Virus record (IMG/VR): IMGVR_UViG_3300031885_000059
Location: 1 to 36,528 of that record
DNA from: a virus
Direction: 5' to 3' (one strand)
Length of the DNA stretch: 36,528 bases
Shown: in pieces, positions 3,469 through 19,229 of the stretch
Position numbering within the stretch: the first letter of the stretch is position 1
How the letters are laid out: each line of letters starts with the position of its first letter
Position numbers and translations under genes: made by a program
Notes under the pieces: model-generated
What the model saw: the letters and a program-made list of their open reading frames with translations, nothing else
Database searches by the model: none
What the model was told of the DNA's origin: nothing

Positions 3469-5049
3469 TCACGCCGCTTCCTCCTCCAGGTCGCCGCCCA
3501 GCCAGGGCGACTCGGGCCGGTCGGCCTCGTCGTACTCGACCTCTAGCGAATGGACGCAATTGTGCACTATAATGCCCCCAGCTAGATAAGCACCTGAGAC
3601 CGTTTGGAGGTCATACACGTGAGCCACGTGGTGTTGCGGAAGCGTCTCAGCTATGACGACGTGGTCAAGGATTACCTCGCCGGCCAGTCCATGTGCGAGG
3701 TCGGAAGCCGCTACGGTATCTGCGCCAGTAGCGTCGGCAACATCCTGCGTCGACGTGGAATCACGGCTCGCCCCGCCGTTAGCGAGCGCACTTGGTCGGG
3801 CAGACGGGGCACGCGAGATAAGTTGTCCACCCTCCTGGCCCGCGCCAGGACCCGCCAGACAAGGCTGGTCGGCTCCAGCAAGCTGGAGGACAGATTCGCC
3901 ACCCTGCTCGATACACTGGGAGCCACCTACACGAGGCAGTTGGCCGTCTCCCGCTACAATCTCGATTTCGCCTTCAGCGAAGCCCCCGTCGCCGTGGAAA
4001 TCCGCGGCGGAAGCTATGACTTTGCGCGGCATTCGCAGTTGGCTGAGCGCACGAAATATCTCGTCGATGAGGGCTGGACCATTATCAGTCTCCATGCCCC
4101 CGGCATCCGCGTGCTCGCGCAGGCTGCGGAATACTGTGTCGCCTTGGCGAACAGACTTCGCTGGCAGCCACCCGCGGCCGGTCAACACCGGATGATTTGG
4201 GGTCAGCACCAACTCTGCGCCGCTCTCCGTGAGGAGTTTCCGGACCGGCCCTGCGTATGCCATCCGCGATGCCGCCAGGACGGCACCCAGTGGCACCACG
4301 GGCGTACCAGAGATCACGCAGTTGACGTGGAGAGGAACTGACCAGGTGTAGCCCTCCTCCAGCGGCACCCAGCCCTCGGCGACAAGGTCCTCGCAGTTGG
4401 GGCAGATCGCGCTCTGCGGGTCCACCCTGGCCCGCCCCGTGAGCTGGTTACGGTAGATGAAGTCCACCTGGGCGTAGTTGCGCGCCGTCCCCAGCTCAGT
4501 GACGCTAATGCTCGGCAGGTGCTTCTGCCAGCGCGCGGCGTCCCAGTCACTGAGCCTTTTGAGGTAGGTCCCCCGATTTGCCGTCGGCACGTCCTCGGCG
4601 ATGCGGGCGATCTGCCGGCGCATCTCGGCGTTGTAGGTGTCACTGATGCTGCTGGCCGCGAACTGGGCCCGATCGCGCAGGTCGCCGAGCACCATCGGGT
4701 CCGTCACCTTGAGGCTGCCAGCGAGGTCATAGCCCGCCACCCGCGCCTCCTGGAGGATGGCCGCCCCGAAGTCGCTCGTTGCCTGCCCGAACAGCTCGTC
4801 GGCCAGGAGGTCGGTGTACCTGGGACCAACGCTGAAGGCGTCGTACACCATCTCCTGGATGGCCGTGAGCTGCTGCTTGGACAGCGGGGCAGGGTAGGCG
4901 AGGGACAGGATCAGGCTCTTCTGCTTGCAGTACTCCTCGGTTGCATCCTTGAGGGCTGCGCAGTAGGCCGATGGATCGTCCTTGTCTTGGTTCGCCGCTA
5001 CACAATCGGCGAAGGAAGCGAATTCGCAGGAGCTTCCGAAAGGGGCCAT
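3469..5049 (-). CDS. MuF-like head morphogenesis protein with intein
   Basis: 526-residue precursor starting at MAPFGSS, whose ATG overlaps the upstream stop (TGATG). The extein (272 residues after splicing) has an N-terminal ASFADCVAANQDK segment and a C-terminal MuF/SPP1 gp7-like region ending in a zinc-type pattern: CPNCEDL, then SVPLHVN joined to CVHSLEVEY, equivalent to the HPNCRH motif of phage Mu F proteins. Residues 244-497 are an intein inserted exactly at that motif (the N|C junctions). The protein is a minor head protein near the portal, needed for assembly. Confidence 0.88.
   Translation of the reverse strand: MAPFGSSCEFASFADCVAANQDKDDPSAYCAALKDATEEYCKQKSLILSLAYPAPLSKQQLTAIQEMVYDAFSVGPRYTDLLADELFGQATSDFGAAILQEARVAGYDLAGSLKVTDPMVLGDLRDRAQFAASSISDTYNAEMRRQIARIAEDVPTANRGTYLKRLSDWDAARWQKHLPSISVTELGTARNYAQVDFIYRNQLTGRARVDPQSAICPNCEDLVAEGWVPLEEGYTWSVPLHVNCVISGTPVVPLGAVLAASRMAYAGPVRKLLTESGAELVLTPNHPVLTGRGWLPAKSVRQGDTVFRSLREHADAGGMETDNGPALIDEIFRALSQLRMPRKVIASAADFHGDGGFAEGEIEIVAGDGQLPRVGGSQCIEQGGESVLQLAGADQPCLAGPGAGQEGGQLISRAPSARPSALANGGASRDSTSTQDVADATGADTVAASDLAHGLAGEVILDHVVIAETLPQHHVAHVYDLQTVSGAYLAGGIIVHNCVHSLEVEYDEADRPESPWLGGDLEEEAA
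3559..4320 (-). other. Intein (Hint domain) in the head protein
   Basis: 254 residues. It begins CVISGTPV, has block B as TPNHPVLTGRGWLPA, and ends VYDLQTVSGAYLAGGIIVHN followed by Cys (+1), so all splicing residues are present: Cys1, TxxH, His-Asn and Cys+1. The roughly 130-residue linker has no LAGLIDADG or HNH motif. It contains DFHGDG...EIEIVAGDG and then an Ala/Ser/Gly-rich stretch. On the opposite strand the same DNA encodes a nuclease (3619-4341). Self-splicing is expected from the motifs. Confidence 0.9.
3568..3573 (+). promoter_or_regulatory. Candidate -10 box for the antisense nuclease
   Basis: A perfect TATAAT on the plus strand, 45 nt before the nuclease GTG. No convincing -35 is found 16-18 nt upstream, and the bases also encode the intein C-terminus (GIIVHN) on the other strand, so this is tentative. 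Confidence 0.35.
3619..4341 (+). CDS. HTH + DUF559/Vsr-like homing-type endonuclease, antisense to the intein
   Basis: 240 residues from GTG 3619, which has GGAGG at 3606-3610, 8 nt upstream; an in-frame TTG at 3604 precedes it. Residues about 10-50 are a helix-turn-helix (YDDVVKDYLAG, then SVGNILRRRGI). Residues about 90-160 match the DUF559/Vsr-like nuclease fold: KLEDRFATLL, YNLDFAF (Asp), VAVEIRGG (Glu) and ERTKYLVDEGW. The last 60 residues lie opposite intein block B and may be incidental. The ORF sits almost entirely inside the intein on the opposite strand, which suggests the homing nuclease of that intein. Confidence 0.8.
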   Translation: MSHVVLRKRLSYDDVVKDYLAGQSMCEVGSRYGICASSVGNILRRRGITARPAVSERTWSGRRGTRDKLSTLLARARTRQTRLVGSSKLEDRFATLLDTLGATYTRQLAVSRYNLDFAFSEAPVAVEIRGGSYDFARHSQLAERTKYLVDEGWTIISLHAPGIRVLAQAAEYCVALANRLRWQPPAAGQHRMIWGQHQLCAALREEFPDRPCVCHPRCRQDGTQWHHGRTRDHAVDVERN

Positions 5050-5249
5050 CACAGTTGCCTGCCGCAGTACCGGCAACTCGTCGGCCCATTCTGGTACCGC
5101 ATCTGCCCTCGCCCGCAGTGGCTGCACTTGACCGACCGGCCATAGCTTCCGCCCAGCGGCGACGCCGCCTCGGGCCCACAAGGTGCCACCGGCGGCTTGG
5201 TTCGGAGCGCCGTCCGGGAGGCTCTTCCCTCAACCCAGCGCTTGCCCAA
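5049..5249 (-). CDS. Small zinc-ribbon protein
   Basis: 66 residues. The C-terminal half holds CSHCGRG...CRYCGRQL, a CxxC-n-CxxC zinc ribbon. The stop overlaps the head-protein start (TGATG). The N-terminal 35 residues are of low complexity, so the true start may lie downstream of 5249. Function is unknown. Confidence 0.65.
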   Translation of the reverse strand: MGKRWVEGRASRTALRTKPPVAPCGPEAASPLGGSYGRSVKCSHCGRGQMRYQNGPTSCRYCGRQL

Positions 5250-11365: not shown

Positions 11366-12174
11366 GGGATGGTCCCCCTTTGTTTGGAGCGCCGGGATGG
11401 AATTGCACCACCCTCTCCCGCATGGATAGCGGGCACATCGCTGTCTATGCTTCCAGCGCCCAGGGCTTCCTCGATCATGTCCAGCAACAGCATCATCGCC
11501 GTCGCGCCATTGCGGACGTCGCGCTCTGCCATCTTCTCGGCTAGCGCGTTCAGGAGCCGGTCGTGCTCGGACCACCGCGCCAGGATGGTCGGAGTCTTGA
11601 TGTCGGCCGCGATCTTGTCGAGCATGGAACGCAGCCGCTCCACCTCCTCCGGCAGAAAGGCGAACGAGATGACGTGGTAGTCCAGGGGGATGTCGGTTAG
11701 GGCCTGGGGTTCGATAGAGGCCAGTTGCAGAAGAATCGCGTCGTCGAGGCCGGAGTATTCCTTGAGGACCACGTCGTCGATCTCGTTGAACAGCTCCCGC
11801 AGGATGACCGAGTCGTCTTCTCCCACGATGGCGTTGTGCGAGAGCTGCTTCGCCACCTCTTCGCCCCTGGTCATGTCATCGGTGATGACCAGCACAGCTA
11901 GGCGCTGGATGCCAGCCTGCTTAGCTGCCATGACGCGATGATTCCCTGAGATGACGCGGAGCTTGCCGTCCGGGAGTAGCCGGCAGAGTGGGACGCTTTC
12001 GACCCGGCCGTCATGCTTGAGATTGTCCACCAGGGCGCCGAAGGTGGCGGCGGACATCATGCGCGCGTTCTTCTCGAGCAGTTGCAGCTCGTCTATGCTG
12101 GCGTATCTGAGCGTCAGACCGTCCGGCAGGCGAAGACTCAGTTCGTCGATGTCCCGTGATTTTGTAGCCACCAC
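11362..12174 (-). CDS. ParB/Srx-fold nuclease-domain protein
   Basis: 270 residues from GTG 12174, which has GGAGGGG 7 nt upstream and overlaps the preceding gene by 37 nt. The N-terminal domain shows LLEKNARMMSAATFGALVDNL and the signature SGNHRVMAAKQAG (residues 76-88), then QLSHNAIVGEDD. This phage ParB-type family is commonly found next to terminase. The C-terminal half is helical. The likely role is in DNA binding, nicking or modification linked to packaging. It is the third ParB-type protein in the window and differs from the two partition-like ones. Confidence 0.85.
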   Translation of the reverse strand: MVATKSRDIDELSLRLPDGLTLRYASIDELQLLEKNARMMSAATFGALVDNLKHDGRVESVPLCRLLPDGKLRVISGNHRVMAAKQAGIQRLAVLVITDDMTRGEEVAKQLSHNAIVGEDDSVILRELFNEIDDVVLKEYSGLDDAILLQLASIEPQALTDIPLDYHVISFAFLPEEVERLRSMLDKIAADIKTPTILARWSEHDRLLNALAEKMAERDVRNGATAMMLLLDMIEEALGAGSIDSDVPAIHAGEGGAIPSRRSKQRGTIP

Positions 12175-13454
12175 TCTAGCCCCTCCTGGAGCGTCCATCG
12201 TCCCAGCTCGCCGACATAGTTTAGGTGCCCCTCCTTGCGAGAGTGCAGTTTGTAGATGCCGCGATACTTCATGCTAACAGGCTTCTCCGTGAAAGCCGTA
12301 GTCCCGATGGTCTTCGCCCTGGCGACCATCCCGCCATCCGATAGCGAGAGCCTAAGCTCCCGGGACAGACTCGCGGCCAGGACGAGCTTGCCCAGGCGTC
12401 GATAGCGATGGTGGGGCACGGCCACGTCACACATCATGTAGAGGTCGCAGAAGCCGGCGCCTGCAGAGCTACGGGAGAAGCCCAGGACCCCGACGAGGTA
12501 CTCGTCCATCATGACGGCGAACGTGAATTGTGGCTGCGCCGGGATGATGTTCTTGCCGAGCAGGCAGTCGCGAAGCCAGCGGAAGGCGGGCGCGTCCAGC
12601 TTCATCAGCCGAAGTTTGCAGGAGGGCGAGATCTCGGCGTCCTGGGGCAGTCTCTTCAGGTGGGGGTCACGGGTCTTCTCTCGTGTCCTGGCAAGGCGAG
12701 AGTGGCCCAGGCTCCCATAGCAGTAGACGGGGCGCTTTCGCAGAGATGGCACAGCGACGCCGACGAGGTGGCCGCGGAGGTCCTCGATAAGCCGATCGTT
12801 AAACAGCAGCCAGTGGGGTCGGATGGTGAGAATCGCTATGAGCTGGGCCATGCTTGACTCGTCGAACATGCGATAGGAGGGCCGGTCTCGCCAGTCGAAC
12901 ACCTTGTCCATGTTCTTGTAAAGCTGCTCGTATCCGCCCTTGTAGGTTGGCGGGGCGGTCATAATTCCGGCGCCGGCGGGAGCCGCGGAGAGGTGATCGA
13001 TCACGTCGCCGGCGTAGTATGAGGCGGCCTTCAGGCCGCCGAGGGCCTTCTCCGCCTTTGCCTTTGTCCCCTCGTGCAGATCATTGAAATGAACCCGGTA
13101 TGCCTCCACGCGGCGCGTCCAATATTCCGAGTCCTTGCCGTAGCCCCGCAGCATCGACGTACAAAGCAGCAGGGTGGCGACGGTATCGAGCGGAGTCTTC
13201 AGGTAGGACCCCAGCCAAGCATACTCCTGGTCCTTGATGGCAAGGCCCAGGGCAGCCCCCGTTAGGTAGGCGCCGATAGCGGAGCTGTAGAGGCTGACGT
13301 CGCTGGAGTGGCAGTTGACGGGGACAGATGCGAGGGCGCGTTCGAGGCCGAATTTGCCGGAGCAGCCCACATAGAGGTCGGAGACGGGCCAGTCTCGGAC
13401 GGCCTCAAGGGCCATCGACTTGAGAGGCTGGGGCAGGCCGCCGATGAAGGGCAT
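12138..13454 (-). CDS. Methyltransferase-like + Mom-like acyltransferase fusion
   Basis: 438 residues from MPFIGG (13454). The N-terminal domain has LYVGCSGKFGLERAL (27-41, like AdoMet motif I), HSSDVSLYS (49-57, acidic motif II) and APPTYKGGYEQLY (167-179, in place of the DPPY catalytic motif). It resembles phage proteins annotated as putative antirestriction adenine methyltransferases. The C-terminal domain (about 305-430) looks GNAT/Mom-like: DLYMMCDVAVP, RYRRLGKLVLAASLSREL, and KPVSMKYRGIYKLHSRKEG. Mu Mom modifies adenine in phage DNA to resist restriction. The gene lies between DUF488 and ParB-type genes, so a DNA-modification role is likely but inferred. Confidence 0.7.
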   Translation of the reverse strand: MPFIGGLPQPLKSMALEAVRDWPVSDLYVGCSGKFGLERALASVPVNCHSSDVSLYSSAIGAYLTGAALGLAIKDQEYAWLGSYLKTPLDTVATLLLCTSMLRGYGKDSEYWTRRVEAYRVHFNDLHEGTKAKAEKALGGLKAASYYAGDVIDHLSAAPAGAGIMTAPPTYKGGYEQLYKNMDKVFDWRDRPSYRMFDESSMAQLIAILTIRPHWLLFNDRLIEDLRGHLVGVAVPSLRKRPVYCYGSLGHSRLARTREKTRDPHLKRLPQDAEISPSCKLRLMKLDAPAFRWLRDCLLGKNIIPAQPQFTFAVMMDEYLVGVLGFSRSSAGAGFCDLYMMCDVAVPHHRYRRLGKLVLAASLSRELRLSLSDGGMVARAKTIGTTAFTEKPVSMKYRGIYKLHSRKEGHLNYVGELGRWTLQEGLEWWLQNHGTSTN

Positions 13455-13464
13455 TTCAGCGCTA

Positions 13465-13812
13465 TCATAAGGCCGGTGTCCACAAGCTCGGATTCTGCTC
13501 CGGCACCGATGTGCCGAGCTCCCGCTCCAGCCATTCCGCGACGAGGCGGCGGTGGCAGAACTCCCCGGGCTTCTCCCAGCAGAGAAGGATGGCATCCTCG
13601 CCGACTTCCTCTAGGATGGCCTTGGCGTCCAGACGCTCCAGCTGGAGCATGAACTTCTCGCGGAAGACGGCCTCGTCGGTCTCTTTCACCAGCGCCCAGG
13701 TCGCCGGTGCCAGAGGCAAGCACCTGCGACCCTTGAACCCTCTCGGTACCCCCCTGCTAATAGCGATGGCGTTGGGGTCCGTTCCTGAGAGTTTGAAGTT
13801 TGAGGTCTTCAT
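13465..13812 (-). CDS. DUF488-family protein
   Basis: 115 residues. ILLCWEKPGEFCHRRLVAEWLE (about 82-103) is the DUF488 signature. It begins at a TAATG overlap with the ParB stop. DUF488 has no settled biochemical role; in phages it recurs near DNA-modification genes. Its place between ParB and the Mom-like fusion suggests the same pathway. Confidence 0.8.
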   Translation of the reverse strand: MKTSNFKLSGTDPNAIAISRGVPRGFKGRRCLPLAPATWALVKETDEAVFREKFMLQLERLDAKAILEEVGEDAILLCWEKPGEFCHRRLVAEWLERELGTSVPEQNPSLWTPAL

Positions 13813-18048: not shown

Positions 18049-18348
18049 TCATTCCTCCGTCCATGAACGCCGGCGAATCGCCGCCAATTCTTCTTCCGTG
18101 TACTGTCGGCCCATGTCGGCCTCATCAGTCGCACAGAAGACGCAAGCCCCATCGCCCGCTATGACGCCCCGGCCACAGAGACAGGCCTTATCGCCTCCGT
18201 CCATGAGAATCCCCAGCGCCGTACGCGAGACGTGGTACTTAGCCTGCAGCCGCTCTTGCCAATCGGGATCTCGCCGCCGATAGAGGAGCGCGGCCTCGGC
18301 CTGCTCGTTCTCCGCCCTAGTCCTCACGCGGACCAGGGCCCAGATCAC
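18049..18348 (-). CDS. Zinc-finger protein downstream of the tRNA
   Basis: About 99 residues from GTG 18348, the first plausible start after the tRNA. The frame is open further upstream but there runs through the tRNA. CLCGRGVIAGDGACVFC gives two CxxC-type pairs. The text before it (WQERLQAKYHVSRTALGILM) is HTH-like. The C-terminus is YTEEELAAIRRRSW. Its ribosome-binding site is weak, so the start is uncertain. Confidence 0.6.
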   Translation of the reverse strand: MIWALVRVRTRAENEQAEAALLYRRRDPDWQERLQAKYHVSRTALGILMDGGDKACLCGRGVIAGDGACVFCATDEADMGRQYTEEELAAIRRRSWTEE

Positions 18349-18389
18349 AAGCGCCCTGGTGCTGAACTCCCACGTCGTCTCGCCATTAT

Positions 18390-18464
18390 TGGTAGCGGCG
18401 GGAGGAGTCGAACCTCCGACCTTCGGGTTATGAGCCCGACGAGCTGCCACTGCTCCACGCCGCG
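18390..18464 (-). tRNA. tRNA-Met(CAT), initiator type
   Basis: 75 nt including an encoded CCA. 5' arm CGCGGCG, D-stem GAGC/GCTC, anticodon arm TCGGG-CTCATAA-CCCGA, variable AGGTC, T-arm GGAGG-TTCGACT-CCTCC, 3' arm CGCCGCT, discriminator A. Three consecutive G-C pairs next to the anticodon loop and the unpaired C1-U72 are hallmarks of initiator tRNA, rather than elongator Met or the CAT-anticodon tRNA-Ile2. It should supply formyl-Met for translation initiation. Confidence 0.92.
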
Positions 18465-18475
18465 TCGCCGCTACC
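18391..18475. repeat. Perfect 10-bp inverted repeat around the tRNA
   Basis: GGTAGCGGCG (18391-18400, covering the tRNA 3' acceptor strand and CCA bases) is the exact reverse complement of CGCCGCTACC (18466-18475), one base outside the tRNA 5' end. In the transcript the 5' flank could pair with the acceptor 3' strand and compete with the 6-bp acceptor stem. Bases 18476-18584 upstream are otherwise without a recognised feature. Confidence 0.85.
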
Positions 18476-18584
18476 TTCTGTCCCAGGCTCCTTCTGCGCT
18501 CCCTGGCAGGTGTGGGCGGCGGAGGCGGCGGGGGGCGGCGGGCGCTCTCCGGAAATGGCTTCTCCCCACCTTTCACTATCCTGC

Positions 18585-19229
18585 TCATGGCTGGCACCCC
18601 GGCCACGGCTGCCACGTCTCGCCCGCGCGCTGAAAGATGATGTAGGCTGCCTGGTAGTCGATCGGGTCGTCTAGCACGAGCTGCTGCCAAGTCCAGCCCT
18701 CAGTCTCCATGAAGAATCCCTCCCATGTTTGGCGGTCGATTTGGAGCCGGCCTGCCTGGGCCCTGGTCAGGTCGTACGTGGCCGGGTCAGCCCCGTGGGT
18801 TGACTCGCACCCCTCTACAACCCAGAGGTTCGCCCACTCTTCAGGAGGCCAGTACCATTTGGCCGCCCAGTCCGCTGGGGGTCCGCCGAGCGAGACACTT
18901 CCTCCAAGGTCTTCCAGGCCAGCACCTGGGGAAGGGTCAGGCATCCCTTGTGAATCTCTCGGTTTAGCCTCCTGATCTGCAGGGGACTCCAATTTTCGAG
19001 CGCCCGGAGATTCGGGCCTCTCCGCCTGAGCGCTCGCATCTCCTGGCGGCTCAGGAGCCGGTGCCGGCGTGGCCTCCCATTGCGGAGCCGGCTCAACAGC
19101 CAGGACACCGCACACGAGAGAATCAACACACTCAAGCCGTACAGGATCGCCGTGGCTATCACCCCCTCTCAGGTACACCCCGGCCGCTACGACTAGCGCT
19201 AAGGCGGCCAGGGTTACTGCCCACCTCAA
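18585..19229 (-). CDS. Secreted/anchored lysozyme-like (SLT/Rpf-like) protein
   Basis: 214 residues from TTG 19229. Residues 4-20 form a signal peptide or membrane anchor (AVTLAALALVVAAGVYL). Residues 45-115 are a Pro/Ala/Glu-rich linker. Residues 120-214 resemble lytic transglycosylase or Rpf-type domains: VVEGCESTHG with presumed catalytic Glu142, GRLQI at 160-164 and a DYQAAYIIFQRAGETWQPWPGC ending typical of these folds (quoted in part). It likely cuts peptidoglycan at lysis or entry. The linker DNA encodes a second ORF in another frame. Confidence 0.8.
   Translation of the reverse strand: MRWAVTLAALALVVAAGVYLRGGDSHGDPVRLECVDSLVCGVLAVEPAPQWEATPAPAPEPPGDASAQAERPESPGARKLESPADQEAKPRDSQGMPDPSPGAGLEDLGGSVSLGGPPADWAAKWYWPPEEWANLWVVEGCESTHGADPATYDLTRAQAGRLQIDRQTWEGFFMETEGWTWQQLVLDDPIDYQAAYIIFQRAGETWQPWPGCQP
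18815..19162 (-). CDS. Nested membrane-protein ORF within the lysozyme gene
   Basis: 115 residues from GTG 19162, overlapping the upstream stop (GTGA). The N-terminus is a transmembrane helix (IATAILYGLSVLILSCAVSWLL) followed by basic residues and helical text (ALENWSPLQIRRLNREIHKGC). It lies wholly inside the lysozyme-like gene in a different frame, over that protein's low-complexity linker. A holin or spanin-like lysis partner is possible by position; no family is recognised. Confidence 0.5.
   Translation of the reverse strand: MIATAILYGLSVLILSCAVSWLLSRLRNGRPRRHRLLSRQEMRALRRRGPNLRALENWSPLQIRRLNREIHKGCLTLPQVLAWKTLEEVSRSADPQRTGRPNGTGLLKSGRTSGL

Follow-up and report, generated by a model that had tools for sequence, protein, structure and literature searches.

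The window, as the whole stretch of 36,528 nucleotides of viral DNA analysed here is called, carries on its minus strand an initiator tRNA gene placed within a small open reading frame, ORF Y (Table 1). The frame runs through both the leader and the tRNA, and the ATG of ORF Y overlaps the stop of the upstream gene X.

Table 1. Coordinates of the features at the tRNA locus of the window
Feature	Positions	Strand	Remarks
Initiator tRNA-Met (CAT) gene, CCA encoded	18390..18464	-	ARAGORN; Rfam RF00005; Chloroflexota comparison
5' leader arm, complementary to the tRNA 3' end	18466..18475	-	
tRNA arm, acceptor 66-72 plus A73 C74 C75	18391..18400	-	
Single spacer A(-1), leader arm to C1	18465..18465	-	
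ORF Y, in frame through leader and tRNA	18049..18588	-	ATG at 18588
Upstream gene X, ending at the start of ORF Y	18585..19229	-	no PHROG, Pfam or NCBIfam match
Block common to the tRNA-less relative L260, including the last 16 nt of the tRNA	18332..18405	-	93.2% identity
Segment absent from L260 (leader, most of the tRNA, proline-rich coding sequence)	18406..18562	-	net 150 nt

Judged by its sequence, the tRNA is a standard, canonical bacterial initiator. ARAGORN called a tRNA-Met(CAT) on the minus strand and Rfam RF00005 scored it at 63.5 bits (gathering score 29), which places the CAT anticodon in a cloverleaf above the cut-off of the tRNA model. A mismatch at position 1-72 and an A11-U24 pair in the D stem are hallmarks of bacterial initiator tRNAs. 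The gene has both, as C1xU72 and as the A11-U24 pair of its GAGC/GCTC D stem, and the anticodon arm (TCGGG-CTCATAA-CCCGA) contains the three consecutive G-C pairs, G29-G31/C39-C41. The T loop is intact. The mismatch and the three G-C pairs, which the original prediction had put forward as initiator hallmarks, can both be read in the sequence.

The leader arm GGTAGCGGCG is the exact reverse complement, over 10 bp, of CGCCGCTACC in the tRNA, so that one arm of the repeat lies outside the tRNA and the other is the tRNA's own 3' end. The perfect complement that had been claimed between the 5' flank and the acceptor 3' strand with its CC end is confirmed by the sequence. T(-9), G(-10) and G(-11) stand opposite A73, C74 and C75, and hence at least two leader bases can pair with the RCCA end. 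The 10-mer of the leader arm occurs at just two places in the window, which are the two arms, and GCGGCG is tandemly repeated over the junction between leader and tRNA (GCGGCGA next to CGCGGCG).

Host counterparts of the tRNA

The host search set consisted of 400 genomes from the phylum of the Chloroflexi genome G011 (reached via L129, FW602_bin.22), and 377 of them gave a match to the window tRNA. The best Chloroflexota initiators are identical to it at 72 of 75 positions. As the three differences are one swapped T-stem pair, in which the pairing is kept, and one T-loop base, the folding of the tRNA is preserved. Most of the chromosomal Chloroflexota tRNA-fMet genes compared (G098, G210, G250, G064 and others; L401-L430) reach this identity, and they likewise have the GCGGCG acceptor, C1xU72 and an encoded CCA. 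It follows from this near-identity that the GCGGCG acceptor belongs to the host group itself. The sequence of the tRNA marks Chloroflexota as the probable hosts of this phage group. The terminase of the group had one weak match among 50,697 phage records, and prophage relatives sought with the terminase in the class of the host-like genome G098 gave only weak partial matches (2 of 158 genomes).

Unlike the window gene, many of the nearest Chloroflexota tRNA-fMet genes have their own -35/-10-like sequences (TTGACA/TATAGT-like, recognized by eye in the 45 or so bases upstream), and the leaders of these genes bear no relation to that of the window. A consensus scan of window positions 18300-18800 revealed no promoter, and no terminator hairpin was found near the tRNA. 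Among 43 unique host-type initiator loci the longest leader complement to the tRNA was six bases and none had seven or more, which speaks against a flank conserved in the hosts. Two of the host leaders (L401 and L402) end in GGCGA, as does the window leader, so only about GGTAG needs to be coincidental; the comparison of leaders suggests that GGCGA may have been inherited and that only GGTAG may be specific to the phage.

The tRNA site in phage relatives

A search with the terminase led to six viral loci, of which L260 is the sole one covering the tRNA site. Its DNA is mostly 80-93% identical to the window in the matched blocks. Beyond the block that contains the end of the tRNA (Table 1) the match resumes at window positions 18563-18643 with 88.9% identity, and between these blocks there are 157 bases in the window against 7 in L260. 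The net difference of 150 bases is a multiple of three and the frame is kept. The homologue of ORF Y in L260 is a 61-aa ORF beginning MSRTDKGGDRSPPAATNNGETTWEFSTRALVIWGL, in which the last 16 or so tRNA bases (the CCCGCCGCTACCA region) are coding sequence. No tRNA was found in the whole record of L260 (62,690 bases), the only record checked in full with both ARAGORN, run on four overlapping pieces, and Rfam. As for other relatives, L002 has neighbouring genes in common with the window, but differently ordered, and L003 ceases to match shortly ahead of the tRNA site.

From the sequences compared, either a gain of the tRNA in the window or its loss in L260 would fit, and the flank is unconserved either way. 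Poor conservation of the flank in relatives, which the original prediction had named as evidence against it, is thus largely what was found, L260 having neither tRNA nor flank. Pairing that is conserved or covarying in relatives, as for a regulated precursor switch, was seen neither in L260 nor in the 43 host-type loci. A conserved leader element was rejected on the same ground, the leader match being absent from L260 and from the host leaders.

The first codons of the tRNA-less ORF Y in L260 contain a perfect 9-bp hairpin, GGGTGGTGA-TAGG-TCACCACCC (L260:3050-3071). It lies where the window has leader and tRNA, and might be a structure that replaced them or a scar of their deletion.

The ORF that is open through the tRNA, the difference to L260 by a multiple of three and the missing promoter could all be explained if the tRNA were a passenger without function as a tRNA, its sequence serving solely to encode protein in ORF Y. 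The codon statistics do not agree with this: the part of ORF Y shared with L260 is coding-like (0.313 per codon, GC3 0.89), and the tRNA part is not (-0.309, GC3 0.50, compared with 0.81 in 16 reference genes). With the high Rfam score, the pair-preserving change in the T stem and the retention of CCA also counting against it, a passenger is considered extremely improbable.

The history of the site might also account for the repeat itself, as a recombination scar left by insertion of the tRNA gene into ORF Y or by its removal from there; the acceptor 5' strand might, for instance, have been duplicated locally, or recombination might have taken place at the tRNA 3' end. L260 keeps only the last 16 or so nucleotides of the tRNA inside an in-frame coding region, GCGGCG stands in tandem over the junction, and phage integrases are present in the records of two relatives, one of them adjoining a tRNA-Arg. 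However, direct duplication gives GCGGCG and not the upstream GGTA that pairs with U72-A73-C74-C75. Moreover, no target duplication was seen at the empty site of L260, which is not a precise one, no integrase was matched in the record of the window or of L260, and no serine recombinase was matched in any of five records. We regard such an origin as decidedly unlikely.

Several other candidates were rejected. A transposon-like inverted repeat does not agree with the empty site of L260, which differs by about 157 bases and extends past the leader arm. An attachment site for an integrase or serine recombinase of this phage was dismissed since the window record has no match to such a gene. A 17-mer spanning the tRNA end and trailer was found in five contigs, four of which have no similarity to the window and were taken as chance matches; one of these four, L267, looks like the 3' end of another phage tRNA.

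Some features of the window and its relatives deserve mention in their own right. In G008, a relative of the window, a tRNA-Arg(TCG) (L391:3647-3721), missed by the Rfam tRNA search and found by ARAGORN, lies just upstream of a tyrosine integrase gene (4588-5028), a layout like that of an attachment site. In the window, the gene adjoining the portal gene (ORF 3469-5181, minus strand) contains an intein at 3553-4317, recognized by Pfam Intein_splicing with an E value of 4e-7, below its curated cut-off. This stretch of about 765 bp is absent from the relatives L260, L261 and L259. The opposite strand has an ORF at 3604-4341 (plus strand, 245 aa) with a DUF559 match above the Pfam cut-off; in a tblastn search it matched 87 phage records, several of the listed rows falling in annotated head morphogenesis genes. 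From these matches the ORF is possibly an antisense homing endonuclease inside the intein, an arrangement found in no paper title in a limited literature search. The window also encodes at 12138-13595 (minus strand) a phage protein in which DAM-like and GNAT-like parts (Pfam) are fused, with nearly full-length homologues, 33-35% identical, in Mycobacterium and Gordonia phages.

The leader match and the precursor fold

In the viral initiator set the match was measured as the longest run of Watson-Crick pairs possible between the last 11 tRNA bases and a 25-nt leader. The set was fetched by an anticodon-arm pattern, and in the sample formed by the 113 other viral initiator tRNAs among the matches listed the longest complement was 5. 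Among a sample of 363 unique tRNAs with full leaders, nearly all of them viral, the complement is 10 in the window and 7 in three others, and lengths of 8 or 9 do not occur. L243 and L247, two of the three with 7, had been preselected by a pattern that required a second GCGGCG at most 8 bases upstream. Five further viral initiators with a GCGGCG acceptor, fetched without this preselection (L077, L083, L309, L320 and L383), had complements of at most 4. Under a third-order Markov model of the phage the chance per 25-nt leader is 6.4e-5 for a 10-nt complement and 1.1% for a 7-nt one. Outside the tRNA region no 25-nt stretch reached 10 on either strand of the window or on one strand each of L260 and L261. 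A 10-nt match is rare for one leader, but some would be expected if very many tRNAs were scanned, and its significance is limited by the number of tRNAs in a genome-wide scan and by the GCG-rich context.

The competing 10-bp helix that had been proposed is indeed predicted. With the other three arms kept, and with tertiary contacts and modified bases ignored, the leader form was calculated at -40.9 kcal/mol and the cloverleaf at -31.2 kcal/mol; the former is favoured by about 9.7 kcal/mol and in this model dominates rather than balances the cloverleaf. With a 25-nt leader and a 15-nt trailer the mean leader-tail pairing was 0.99, and the pairing probability of the native acceptor was 0.0006 with the leader and 0.998 without it. 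Folding with and without the flank, as had been proposed, thus predicts a loss of the native acceptor. It fails to set this leader apart, since random and host leaders often have the same effect: in the model 23.5% of 1486 leaders picked at random from genomic sequence abolished the native acceptor stem, and among 46 real precursors of host initiators the share was 67%, which makes the folding argument weak. The total interaction energy of the leader was -4.2, and 596 of 2980 random leaders were as low or lower. Leader-tail pairing of at least 0.9 was obtained for about 0.2% of the 1486 random leaders and for none of the 46 host precursors (maximum 0.70). What is unusual in the model is specifically the leader-tail pairing, the total interaction energy being unremarkable.

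This pairing could act as a lock on the precursor, if evolution has shaped the leader to base-pair with CCA and the 3' strand of the acceptor. The tRNA would then stay uncut, and the mRNA containing it would be kept too, until RNase P, a helicase or ribosomes translating ORF Y opened the helix. The perfect helix, its calculated advantage over the cloverleaf and its nearly complete predicted pairing speak for such a lock, and the tRNA lies in sense and in frame within an ORF, so that cutting would destroy the mRNA. Pairing between leader and RCCA is also described, in PMC9433436, as inhibiting formation of the catalytic RNase P complex.

A shorter version of the pairing exists in a distant phage, in L247, which is a stretch of a 42-kb viral record; the record comes from the metagenome that also yielded L002. 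There AGCGGCGA directly precedes an initiator-like tRNA with the acceptor strand of the window, giving 7 bp. This tRNA (12562-12634, TGCGGCG...CGCCGCTA) has U1xU72, no encoded CCA, C33 instead of U33 and two of the three G-C pairs in the anticodon stem. Its leader pairs with positions 66-72 and not beyond, and is without GGU. It lies about 350 bases upstream of a gene for a ParB-like protein that is 38% identical to that of the window. L247 leaves room for a functional reading without establishing one: the pattern that led to L247 preselects tandem GCGGCG, the alternative fold gains only 1.6 kcal/mol over the cloverleaf, and with the natural 25-nt leader the predicted minimum free energy structure is without the leader helix. 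As the pairing is also unconserved in hosts and in the one close phage relative at the site (L260), and the interaction energy of the window leader is ordinary, a lock of this kind appears unlikely.

Another initiator-like phage tRNA, in L243 (at 4707), is preceded at 4693-4699 by a leader GGCGGCG that could pair with CGCCGCC (66-72). This leader lies six bases further upstream than that of the window and was preselected by the search pattern.

A more elaborate form, in which the strand-exchanged precursor holds the tRNA embedded in sense and its opening or processing trades ORF Y mRNA for initiator tRNA, is highly doubtful. If it were true, the leader would serve as a perfect 5' acceptor strand, with A opposite U72 followed by UGG opposite ACC; the initiator mismatch and the CCA end would be hidden, and the transcript would stay an mRNA until the helix opened. 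L247 would then be an independent, shorter case. The block of aminoacylation until processing that had been suggested for the repeat would hold for any unprocessed precursor and needs no repeat.

A probably captured initiator tRNA and known systems

The explanation that we favour, as a reasonably probable one, is that the initiator tRNA was captured from Chloroflexota and that its match with the leader is incidental. The phage, whose hosts are probably Chloroflexota, would have taken up an intact copy of a host initiator tRNA gene, now situated in the first part of ORF Y within a block of leftward genes. Lacking its own promoter, the gene would be transcribed within the mRNA, from which host RNase P and 3' trimming would free it, and the freed tRNA would add to or replace the host tRNA-fMet in translation initiation. 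The 10-nt complement would have arisen locally in GCG-rich coding sequence, presumably without selection on the leader. In a precursor folded as predicted, the 5' acceptor strand would be displaced by the leader and ACC would be hidden, which should slow cleavage by RNase P rather than act as a dedicated switch. With ten pairs to exchange, slow processing is a fair prediction, provided that the leader is transcribed and is not opened by translation or proteins.

No conservation of the pairing was found in comparable loci. Because no relative has it in full, the leader-tail pairing is more likely a local coincidence than a regulatory device. Against an incidental match stand the rarity of a perfect 10-nt match for a single leader, the rarity of leader-tail pairing as strong as 0.9 among random leaders and its absence from the host precursors, and the presence of AGCGGCGA in L247, where GGU is absent and CCA unencoded, as functional pairing would predict.

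Phage-borne initiator tRNAs are already known, and with the tRNA of the window the capture of a host tRNA by a phage can be put to the test. It resembles the tRNA-fMet genes of Caulobacter phage CcrColossus, Erwinia phage phiEa21-4 and Gordonia phage GodonK in being a bacterial-type initiator in a phage genome. In the phage tRNA-fMet matches (117 records), none of the 60 places listed aligns across the window leader arm, and the furthest-reaching of them covers its last five bases. A limited literature search brought up no phage initiator tRNA whose leader forms ten pairs in this manner. Phage tRNAs in general have been argued to offset host nucleases that cut tRNA, and phages generally to avoid tRNA-fMet where a host nuclease targets its anticodon (both in PMC10264068). 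Phage initiator tRNAs may offset tRNA-cutting host nucleases.

The closest comparison for the leader is with the pre-tRNAs of E. coli. According to Zhu et al. 2022 (PMC9433436), pairing between leader and RCCA is a routine load for E. coli RNase P, with G-2U-1 in 18 of 87 leaders and G-2G-1 in 5. It slows the enzyme because the pairs hinder formation of the catalytic complex, and two pairs lower kcat/Km 13-fold. The leader repeat of the window is a natural substrate for asking how far RNase P unwinds leader pairing, although nothing so far shows that the phage makes use of it. As in the E. coli pre-tRNAs, leader bases of the window are predicted to pair with the 3' RCCA. In E. coli, according to PMC9433436, the acceptor stem stays intact and is lengthened by one or two pairs, whereas in the window a strand exchange over ten pairs would put the leader in place of the entire 5' acceptor strand.
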